Assembly (NCBI RefSeq): GCF_028551275.1
Contig: NZ_CP117025.1
Location: 1,111,501-1,175,500, forward strand
Direction: 5' to 3'
Source of the DNA: Sphingomonas hankookensis
GTDB lineage: Bacteria; Pseudomonadota; Alphaproteobacteria; Sphingomonadales; Sphingomonadaceae
DNA: 64,000 bases
The notes below the pieces were generated by a model. The model made no database searches. It saw only the letters and a list, made by a program, of their open reading frames with translations, and was not told where the DNA came from. The position numbers were made by a program, and so were the translations under genes. Below are positions 25,865-28,593 of this stretch, in pieces. The first letter of the stretch is position 1, and every line of letters begins with the position of its first letter.

Positions 25865-25909
25865 GATCCCGCTCGCGGCGCACGACCGTCGCGTCACGGG
25901 GGGAAGAAC

Positions 25910-26065
25910 ATGCCGATCGTCACCATCCCACTTGCCGAGATCGTCGATCTGGGAACGCAGGTTGCGACGACCGGCGCGATCCGCGTGGCGGAGGCGTCGG
26001 GCGATCAGGTGTTCGAATATATCATCGCCGTCGCGATGCTGGTGTACGAGATGTATCCGAACTGA
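25910..26065 (+). CDS. Small peptide, 51 aa, head of an uncharacterised operon
   Basis: An open frame of 51 codons beginning MPIVTIPLAEIVDLGTQVAT and ending AMLVYEMYPN, behind a strong GGGGGGAAG ribosome-binding site seven bases before ATG. The next gene starts one base after its stop. It has no signal peptide; the C-terminal third (FEYIIAVAMLVYEMY) is hydrophobic and aromatic. Tight coupling to two unknown proteins suggests a real gene. Possible roles include a modified-peptide precursor, a small membrane-associated subunit or a regulatory peptide. I do not recognise its family. Confidence 0.6.
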   Translation: MPIVTIPLAEIVDLGTQVATTGAIRVAEASGDQVFEYIIAVAMLVYEMYPN

Positions 26066-26066
26066 G

Positions 26067-27011
26067 ATGCCGGCACCGATCGATGGACAGTTGCGCGATG
26101 CGATCGCGGCGGCGCGGGAGCGGTCGCTCGCGGTGGCGCGCGACTGGACCGACGATGCGGCGGTTCGGGCGGTAACGGCGCGCTTCGCCGATGTGACGAC
26201 GCTGGCCGAGGGAGAGGCCGCTGCGTGCGCATTGGTGCAGGATGCCGGCTGGGTCGGTGCCCTGCTCGCCCCGTGGATCGCAAGGCTGCGGGACGATCCC
26301 CTGCTTGAACCGCCGTTCAAGAGCCAGCGCGACGCATTGCGCACCGGCATGGTGCTGGTCGAGACGGCGGCTGCCAGCGTGACGATGGCGGTGATCGACC
26401 ACCTTGCCCCGGCGGCCCGCGTCATGCCCGATACCGTCGTCGTTGGCGGGCGGGTGTCGTGGACGCGCTACCTGCGCGGGGGCGAGGCCCGGCTGTGGCG
26501 ATGGCGGGCCGACGCGATCGACGATGGCTGGCACGGTGCCATCGCCGCACCGGCGCGGCCATTGGCGGTGCAGCCCCTGGCCGATGGCGCAGTGGTGCGG
26601 CTGGACGGACGGACCGACGCGATGTTGCTGGTCGAACCGGTCGGCCCCATCGTGTCGGTGACGATCACGCTGCGCCACGGTGCCGCGCCGTTCATGCGCG
26701 AATATGACCGGGCGGGCGGTGGGCTGGTGCGCGTGGCGACGCTGGACGACGCGGCGGCGCGCAGCACGATGCTGCTGACGCTGTTGCGCGAACTGGGACA
26801 GGCGGACGAAGAGGTGTTCGACGCGCTGTCGCGCGACCCCGCCTTCTTCGTGCGCTGGGACGCGATGCGCGAATGGCTGGCCTGCGATGCGCGTGCCGCC
26901 TTGCCCCGGCTGCGCGCGATGACCGACGATCCGCACCCCGACGTCCGATCAGCGGCCCAGGCGATGCTGCCGGTGGTGGAAGCGCGCATGGGGGCGGCAT
27001 GGCACGGGTGA
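26067..27011 (+). CDS. Uncharacterised protein with C-terminal helical (HEAT-like) module, 314 aa
   Basis: Not recognised. Residues ~1-105 are alpha-helical, ~115-215 are beta-rich (VVVGGRVSWTRYLRGGEARL; AMLLVEPVGPIVSVTITLRH) and could be a cupin-like or jelly-roll fold, and ~225-314 are helical with VRWDAMREWLACDARAALPR and DPHPDVRSAAQAMLPVVEA, reminiscent of HEAT repeats. The last part resembles the end of the next protein. It begins one base after the 51-aa peptide stop and overlaps the next gene by 13 bases. The same cassette is not otherwise present in this window. Confidence 0.75.
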   Translation: MPAPIDGQLRDAIAAARERSLAVARDWTDDAAVRAVTARFADVTTLAEGEAAACALVQDAGWVGALLAPWIARLRDDPLLEPPFKSQRDALRTGMVLVETAAASVTMAVIDHLAPAARVMPDTVVVGGRVSWTRYLRGGEARLWRWRADAIDDGWHGAIAAPARPLAVQPLADGAVVRLDGRTDAMLLVEPVGPIVSVTITLRHGAAPFMREYDRAGGGLVRVATLDDAAARSTMLLTLLRELGQADEEVFDALSRDPAFFVRWDAMREWLACDARAALPRLRAMTDDPHPDVRSAAQAMLPVVEARMGAAWHG

Positions 27012-27907
27012 TCGACCCGGGCAGTGGCGATGCGATCGGGCTGGACGATCTGGTCGACCTGCTCGCCACCGAACCGGTCGATGTGCGCGACGAGGAGGCG
27101 TTCGCGTCGCTTGGCCCGGCACTCGCCCGGCTCGGGCGCAACCGGACCTTCCTTGGCGAACTCGCGCTGGCCGAACTCAAACAGCGGTGCCGCGGGCAGG
27201 TCGACGGCAATGCCTATGGTGCACAGGTGTTGCTGCTGCGCCCGCCTGATGGCCGCTTCGTTCTGCGTGCGAATTTCTGGCCGGCGGCGCAGGATCGCGC
27301 GCTCCGGGCCGGCGGGCGGGGCGCCTATTTCTACGACCTGCCGCACGACCATAATTTCCCGTTCCTGACGGTCGGCTATCATGGGCCGGGCTATTGGAGC
27401 GACGATTACCGCTACGACGTCACCGCCATCGACGGCAGCATCGGCGAACCGGCGGGTCTGCGCCATGTCGGGCGCTCGCGGCTCGATCCGGGCAAGGTGC
27501 TGCTCTACCGGATGCGCGACGACGTGCATGTCCAGCTGCCGCCCGATGCCTTTTCGGTATCGCTCAACATCCTGGGCTATGACGCGGCTCAGCCCTGGCT
27601 CGACCAATATCGCTTCGACATTCGCGGCAACAGCATCGCGCAGGTGCTGACCTCGACGCCGGCGGAGGCGCTGGTGACGCTGGCCGTCGGGGCTGACCTG
27701 CCCGACGCGCTCGACCTCGCCGAGAGTTTTGCCACGCGCCACCCGTGCGACCGGATGCGGATCACCGTGCTCGACGCGCTGGTCCGGTCCGGACCCGATC
27801 CGCTGGCCGCGCTGGAGCGCGCGGCGGACGACCCGTCGCGGCGGATCGCCGGCCATGCCCGACAGCTGCTGGCACAGATCGATCCGGATCGGACGCGGTT
27901 GTCCTAA
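26999..27907 (+). CDS. Uncharacterised cupin-like protein with C-terminal helical module, 302 aa
   Basis: Function unknown. The central region contains the striking motif YDLPHDHNFPFLTVGYHGPG followed by YWSDDYRYD, and later KVLLYRMRDDVHVQLPPDAF followed by SVSLNIL. The HxH and the downstream H in VHVQL could be metal ligands of a cupin-type barrel (inference). The C-terminal ~90 residues (DRMRITVLDALVRSGPDPLA; DDPSRRIAGHARQLL) resemble the end of the preceding protein. Third gene of the peptide operon; an OmpR-type regulator follows 32 bases later on the same strand. Confidence 0.75.
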   Translation: MARVIDPGSGDAIGLDDLVDLLATEPVDVRDEEAFASLGPALARLGRNRTFLGELALAELKQRCRGQVDGNAYGAQVLLLRPPDGRFVLRANFWPAAQDRALRAGGRGAYFYDLPHDHNFPFLTVGYHGPGYWSDDYRYDVTAIDGSIGEPAGLRHVGRSRLDPGKVLLYRMRDDVHVQLPPDAFSVSLNILGYDAAQPWLDQYRFDIRGNSIAQVLTSTPAEALVTLAVGADLPDALDLAESFATRHPCDRMRITVLDALVRSGPDPLAALERAADDPSRRIAGHARQLLAQIDPDRTRLS

Positions 27908-27939: not shown

Positions 27940-28593
27940 ATGCATGTCGTCGTCGCCCTTGATCCGGTTCCCGCGCTGGTCGTTCCGGCGCGTCGGCGGG
28001 GCATCGTGCTGCGCTCGCTGCCCGAGGCGCCCCATGCCCCGGTCCGGTTGGCGCGCTGGCACCGGGGGGAGGGGTGCGCGCCGGGGCGGCTGCGGACGGT
28101 ACGTGGCGGCGAACGGTCGGTGCGCGCGATGCTGCTGGTCGAGGATGCCGATGCGCTGGCCGCCGGGCTGGATGCGGGCGCCGACGATGCGGTGCTGGAA
28201 CGCGCGCACCCGGTCGAGATCGTCGCACGGATGCTGGCGCTGCTGCGCGACAGCCGCCGCGACGGGCTGCTGACCATCGGCGACCTGACTATCGACCGCG
28301 CCGCGCACCGGGTGTGGCGCGGAGGCACTAGACTGCATCTGTTGCCGCGCGAATATGCGGTGTTGCTGCATCTGGCCGAACATGCTGGCCGCGCGGTGTC
28401 GCGTACGGCGCTGTTGCGTGCGCTATGGGACCGGGATTTCGATCCCGGCACCAATGTCGTGCAGGTGCAGATGTCGCGGCTGCGCGCGAAGCTCGATGCG
28501 GCCGGTCCGCCGATGCTGCACACTGATCGCGGCCGGGGCTACCGGCTGGGGGACGTGTCGTGGCAACTATCGCCGGCCGGCGACGATCGATAG
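27940..28593 (+). CDS. OmpR-type transcription factor with degenerate receiver domain (217 aa)
   Basis: The C-terminal winged helix (about 118-207) is clear: TRLHLLPREYAVLLHLAEHA, VSRTALLRALWDRDFDPGTN and VVQVQMSRLRAKLDAAG, ending GRGYRLG. The N-terminal ~110 residues keep only the last elements of a receiver (DAGADDAVLERAHPVEIVAR). The phospho-accepting aspartate strand is not recognisable and the usual Lys-Pro is Glu-Arg, so control by phosphorylation is doubtful. ATG 27940 follows TAGGG by nine bases. No sensor kinase is adjacent. It may regulate the preceding peptide operon (inference from position). Confidence 0.85.
   Translation: MHVVVALDPVPALVVPARRRGIVLRSLPEAPHAPVRLARWHRGEGCAPGRLRTVRGGERSVRAMLLVEDADALAAGLDAGADDAVLERAHPVEIVARMLALLRDSRRDGLLTIGDLTIDRAAHRVWRGGTRLHLLPREYAVLLHLAEHAGRAVSRTALLRALWDRDFDPGTNVVQVQMSRLRAKLDAAGPPMLHTDRGRGYRLGDVSWQLSPAGDDR

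Follow-up and report, generated by a model that had tools for sequence, protein, structure and literature searches.

Small-molecule thiol dioxygenases such as cysteine dioxygenase (CDO) and 3-mercaptopropionate dioxygenase (Pfam CDO_I, PF05995) are cupin-fold enzymes with a Ser-His-Tyr outer sphere. In the N-terminal cysteine oxidases (ADO and the plant cysteine oxidases, PCO), X-Asp-Leu is found in place of Ser-His-Tyr (PMC10966181). Here we describe a three-gene cassette from Sphingomonas hankookensis, located in a stretch of 64,000 nucleotides (hereafter the window; contig NZ_CP117025.1, positions 1,111,501 to 1,175,500), in which a gene for a 51-residue peptide is followed by two larger open reading frames, ORF2 and ORF3 (Table 1). 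On balance, the cassette is probably a peptide-maturation system resembling those of ribosomally synthesised and post-translationally modified peptides (RiPPs), in which ORF3 would oxidise the tail of the peptide and ORF2 would act as its pseudo-oxygenase partner.

The RiPP systems closest in layout are those built on multinuclear non-heme iron-dependent oxidative enzymes (MNIO, DUF692), which likewise pair a short precursor with an iron oxygenase and a partner protein. One example is the pbs cluster, which also has a cupin-like hydroxylase, PbsQ (PMC12257519). In contrast to MNIO systems, both large proteins of the cassette described here are predicted cupins with HEAT-like tails. Judged by titles and the beginnings of abstracts, no published description of the three-gene cassette was found in the literature searched, which lacked most subscription papers.

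Table 1. Features of the cassette and of the gene that follows it (positions in the window).
Feature	Position	Strand	Basis or remark
Ribosome-binding site of peptide gene, G-rich, GGGGGGAAG	25898..25906	+	sequence
Candidate precursor peptide gene, 51 residues	25910..26065, stop codon included	+	pN/pS 0.12; homologue upstream in 80/80 scored loci
N-terminal half of peptide, more conserved, leader-like; L14 in all sequences, T16 and G22 in nearly all	25910..25999	+	alignment
Hydrophobic C-terminal tail FEYIIAVAMLVY, candidate core	26012..26047	+	
ORF2, 314 aa: predicted cupin-fold pseudoenzyme with C-terminal HEAT-like helices, candidate partner protein	26067..27011	+	
ORF3, 302 aa: predicted thiol-dioxygenase-fold oxygenase with C-terminal HEAT-like helices	26999..27907	+	
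Dioxygenase (cupin) domain of ORF3, residues 8-219	27020..27655	+	aligned range
His-Asp-His (H116-D117-H118) of ORF3, aligned with two thiol dioxygenase metal ligands	27344..27352	+	
H177 of ORF3, aligned with third metal ligand	27527..27529	+	
HEAT-like helices of ORF3, residues 221-300	27659..27898	+	predicted model; Pfam HEAT_2 E 0.00057, below cut-off
OmpR-type regulator	27940..28593	+	Pfam Trans_reg_C

The short gene is coding and accompanies the two large genes

The three genes form a genuine, conserved cassette. ORF2, ORF3, the regulator and the peptide of the window are 100% identical to those of S. hankookensis strain CN3. A scan of a species-level genome collection found relatives of ORF3 at 390 loci, and the best 80 of these were scored. 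As the first-pass annotation of this DNA had noted, the small frame and the two large genes follow one another without gaps: a single base separates the stop codon of the peptide gene from the ATG of ORF2, and the first 13 nt of ORF3 lie within ORF2, as they do in 62 of 78 homologous loci. A frame at the ORF2 position was called in 78 of the 80 loci, while L045 and L053 have ORF2 tblastn matches instead.

The 51-codon frame is coding. Among eight close loci, its ratio of nonsynonymous to synonymous differences (pN/pS), pooled over pairs, was 0.12, versus 3.2 and 18.8 for the other two forward frames, and variable sites numbered 7, 2 and 25 at the first, second and third codon positions, respectively. 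This substitution pattern rules out a spurious short frame and is the opposite of what the first-pass annotation had named as an argument against its own proposal. The ribosome-binding site, which had been described as very strong, is instead G-rich, and the Shine-Dalgarno consensus is matched over only 3-5 nt in 49 of the 58 relatives with a picked start, the window's copy not being among those scored.

A homologue of the short frame lies just 5' of ORF2 at every scored locus. A profile seeded with six peptides and then iterated detected it at 62 of the 80 loci in the first round and at 70 after iteration, and stop-to-stop reading recovered it at the remaining 10. Homologues of the large proteins that lack an upstream short frame, which had been proposed as the telling counterexample, were thus absent among the 80, and at all of them a short gene, the presumptive precursor, stands beside a predicted oxygenase, as in a RiPP system. 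In 16 further regions picked by hand, holding 17 cassettes, the profile matched in 14 cassettes (weakest 0.069 in L162, with 0.028 in L163), the L170 peptide being the same as that of L074; in L158, L159 and the second cassette of L156, a short frame that has a ribosome-binding site and encodes a hydrophobic tail was recognised by eye. Regions without a profile match (L108-L111, L147, L149 and L150) also contain a short frame whose C-terminal tail is hydrophobic, but these frames constitute weaker evidence because they were themselves chosen for hydrophobicity. Distant loci with such a frame include two from outside the class. One-by-one inspection covered the loci other than L092-L107, L112 and L125-L143.

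A similar linkage was seen in 121 genomes of the genus, where 33 had a peptide match and 36 an ORF3 match, with 31 common to both. The two genomes with a peptide match and no ORF3 match are G749, where the match lies at a contig end, and G755, where it (E 0.004) probably arose by chance. Conversely, an ORF3 match without a peptide match was obtained in G020, G744, G760 and G770, where diverged peptides were seen, and in G785, where the ORF3 match is weak and covers the HEAT part alone.

The peptide combines a more conserved N-terminal half with a variable hydrophobic tail

In an 80-row alignment of the peptides, the N-terminal half follows the pattern I-D-x-x-x-I/L-P-E/D-L-x-T-x-V-A/G-x-x-G-A/S, within which L14 (window numbering) occurs in every sequence, T16 in 76 and G22 in 78 of the 80. 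The N-termini of the relatives are approximate, since the choice of start favours a length near 51. Towards the C-terminus, the peptides have a short aliphatic stretch that varies between relatives, reading FEYIIAVAMLVYE in the window, VGGPVCIAALLAVAYMLS in L071 (Sphingosinicella) and DDTIVVIATIVYESSPPGG in L073 (Alteraurantiacibacter), and the most hydrophobic 11-residue stretch falls in the C-terminal half of all 80 peptides. Mean identity is 41% in the leader-like part vs 31% in the candidate core part. In some clades EVGG precedes the hydrophobic tail; the window's peptide is without a double glycine. The N-terminal half could serve as a leader, and the peptide could be the substrate of ORF3.

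Cysteine occurs in 16 of the 80 peptides and is absent from that of the window. Oxidation of a peptide cysteine was considered as the general function of the cassette and rejected, because most of the peptides contain none.

ORF3 is predicted to be a thiol-dioxygenase-fold enzyme with an altered active site

The first-pass annotation could not assign either large protein, and Pfam and NCBIfam indeed gave no confident family for them, but both can be assigned by predicted fold. ORF3 was confidently modelled as a thiol-dioxygenase cupin followed by HEAT-like helices (predicted model, Foldseek, VIA). PDB sequence searches with ORF3 and with its profile yielded only weak, unrelated-looking matches. 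Residues H116, H118 and H177 are present in 56 of 56 ORF3 sequences and align with the metal ligands of the thiol dioxygenase family, which lends substance to the earlier suggestion of cupin-type metal ligands in the third gene and, as far as the alignment goes, suggests that ORF3 may bind iron. The segment HDHNFPFLTVGYHGPGYWSD, previously called conserved-looking, indeed has seven residues that are invariant across these 56 diverse sequences (H116, H118, F120, T124, G129, G131 and Y132).

The resemblance of ORF3 to CDO and 3-mercaptopropionate dioxygenase extends over the predicted cupin fold and includes W94 and an S-x-S segment in addition to the His-Asp-His and the third His (six of eleven CDO_I loci entered the alignment, the other five being dropped because they yielded a wrong frame or gene). 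However, the Ser-His-Tyr outer sphere of those enzymes is replaced in ORF3 by Ser-Asn-Leu, with S188 in 54, N190 in 56 and L192 in 32 of the 56 sequences (M, I or V in the others), and the 20 Pfam families that these sequences match at E ≤ 1 do not include CDO_I. ORF3 also differs from them in its C-terminal HEAT-like helices, in an insertion before the His-Asp-His and in its linkage to a peptide gene and a pseudoenzyme. Nor does it coincide with ADO and PCO, which have Asp where ORF3 has an invariant Asn and which oxidise an N-terminal cysteine, whereas the window's peptide has no cysteine. Given that peptide and the Ser-Asn-Leu outer sphere, ORF3 probably does something other than ordinary thiol dioxygenation. 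Gln76 was considered as the counterpart of the active-site Gln of mercaptopropionate dioxygenase and dropped, as that Gln aligns with the neighbouring residue.

Among the matches listed, 15 ORF3 homologues carry a name in NCBI, UniRef or nr, and for 13 of them at least one source gives 'transposase'. We rejected this assignment, as ORF3 matches no transposase family in Pfam or NCBIfam and its predicted fold is that of a cupin; the name is likely a propagated misannotation.

ORF2 is a remote paralogue of ORF3 with a predicted cupin fold and without the histidine pair. The two large proteins had been regarded as candidate metalloenzymes, a description that can be kept for ORF3 and not for ORF2, a degenerate paralogue devoid of the metal histidines. 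We infer that ORF2 is a pseudoenzyme that serves as a partner or recognition subunit for the peptide. In the proposed mechanism, ORF2 would bind the peptide by its N-terminal half, and the hydrophobic C-terminal tail would meanwhile be oxidised by ORF3. A search of PHROGs returned nothing for ORF3 or the peptide and two weak matches for ORF2 (E 0.15 and 0.23).

Tandem cassettes, export and alternative functions

Tandem cassettes, each set holding two different peptides, are present at L144, L145 and L146 (genomes of the genus, near relatives) and at L156 (another genus). All four adjoin genes for an ABC (ATP-binding cassette) exporter, an HlyD-type protein, a MacB-type ATPase and FtsX permeases, which were identified by Pfam for L146 (ATPase only for L144) and by ABC signatures and frame reading for L145 and L156. 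Together with the EVGG motif of some clades, these genes resemble those of the double-glycine peptide systems with ABC export. The cassettes differ from such systems in that the window's peptide has no double glycine, the 80 scored single cassettes have no ABC signature beside them (see below) and the L146 exporter, the one exporter tested, has no peptidase domain by Pfam.

Two results bear on export and leader cleavage. First, no ABC signature lies within ~5 kb at any of the 80 single-cassette loci, some of which are truncated at contig ends; in other single-cassette regions scanned, L110 and L171 have one unidentified ABC signature each, 3-5 kb away. Second, no protease gene was recognised, although no systematic protease search was made. 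Taken with the exporters at the tandem cassettes, the first result indicates that export of the product is likely for the tandem kind; the product of the window's own cassette may be exported as well.

A RiPP-like system is favoured because the peptide stays with a predicted oxygenase and its inactive paralogue, because exporters accompany the duplicated sets, and because the active site is altered where polypeptide-acting thiol dioxygenases also differ. The modified-peptide layout proposed by the first-pass annotation has thereby become the best-supported reading, with a coding peptide linked in every scored locus and histidines that align with metal ligands, but in a reduced form, as just one of the two large proteins is a predicted metalloenzyme and exporters were found only beside the tandem cassettes of other genomes.

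The observations could be explained in a few other ways. First, the peptide could belong permanently to an ORF2-ORF3 oxidase, as a small subunit or as its membrane tether, with some other molecule as the substrate of that oxidase. The one-to-one linkage in the scored loci, the strong purifying selection on the peptide, the lack of ABC signatures at single cassettes and the hydrophobic stretch in the C-terminal half of all 80 peptides are consistent with such a role; however, this stretch is short (about 10-15 residues) and differs widely between clades, and the tandem cassettes hold two different peptides beside exporter genes, so we consider a subunit or tether unlikely. Second, the short frame could be a regulatory upstream frame through which translation of the operon is controlled, with ORF3 acting as a small-molecule thiol dioxygenase. 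This might be suggested by the family fold and three histidines of ORF3 and by the short-frame stop, which at many loci is a few bases at most from the start of ORF2. The amino-acid sequence of the peptide is conserved across genera, though, and conservation is lower at its C-terminus, the part on which an arrest peptide would depend; the loss of Ser-His-Tyr and the absence of a CDO_I match likewise argue against a small-molecule enzyme, which makes this explanation quite improbable. Finally, a small hydrophobic toxin neutralised by ORF2/ORF3 (a toxin-antitoxin or bacteriocin-immunity unit) would fit the small size, the hydrophobic tail and the exporter genes beside tandem units, but is the least probable of the three, as PADLOC gave no match for the cassette and thioesterase-like neighbours common to several genomes of more than one genus suggest vertical inheritance. 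No single rival accounts for all three of these features: exporters, pseudoenzyme and variable tail.

If the cassette does mature a peptide, a thiol-oxidising enzyme fold would have been turned to ribosomal peptides mostly devoid of cysteine, providing an unusual route to a modified peptide in which CDO-fold partners oxidise a hydrophobic tail. It is conceivable, and we propose this tentatively, that these cassettes of sphingomonads and some distant proteobacteria define a new class of ribosomal peptide natural product, made by a peptide-acting branch of the CDO fold. In this view, an active/inactive heterodimer with HEAT tails would use oxygen to modify aliphatic peptide tails, most of which contain no cysteine. 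With three small genes, the cassette is a compact target for reconstitution.

Neighbouring genes

A regulator gene follows ORF3, as described in the first-pass annotation, and contains an OmpR-type DNA-binding domain (E 3.9e-22); a relative of it lies directly 3' of ORF3 in 60 of the 80 loci. Its N-terminal half matches receiver domains poorly, the best NCBIfam stretch starting at residue 63, and it is possibly an atypical response regulator that works without phosphorylation. Upstream of the window's cassette are two genes which we take to be thioesterase-like and which are also found at L074, L086 and L151-L155 (more than one genus).

The tandem cassettes of L146 (by Pfam) and L145 (by resemblance) have a sigma-factor gene upstream. 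In Sphingosinicella, two genes come before the cassettes of L069 (2481-3646) and L077 (2607-3775), one resembling a sigma-factor gene and the other a gene for a small membrane protein, as read from the sequence, in contrast to Sphingomonas, where the regulator comes after ORF3. ORF3 is followed, in a distant branch, by a gene (L110, 9060-9404; L149, 2656-3063) whose small hydrophobic product, 114-135 aa long, has no Pfam match and could be an export or immunity protein.

Distribution

Counting the source genome in each set, ORF3 matches were found in 9 of 61 relatives, 36 of 121 genus genomes and 106 of 298 sampled family genomes (46 of 96 genera; a few matches weak or partial). Matches were also obtained in 3 of 289 class genomes, all within the family, and in 15 of 398 phylum genomes, two of which (G457 and G625) lie outside the class. 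The oxygenase often passes under the name 'transposase', and the presumptive precursor gene is easily overlooked, as a protein search gave 10 peptide relatives vs at least 1767 ORF3 relatives, the search being less sensitive for a short query. In five genomes of one genus (G799, G883, G942, G990 and G1027), the ORF3 match contains one in-frame stop. The proteins of L018, which is titled Bacillus sp. 2B10, are 76-86% identical to Sphingomonas ones, and the entry is probably mislabelled.
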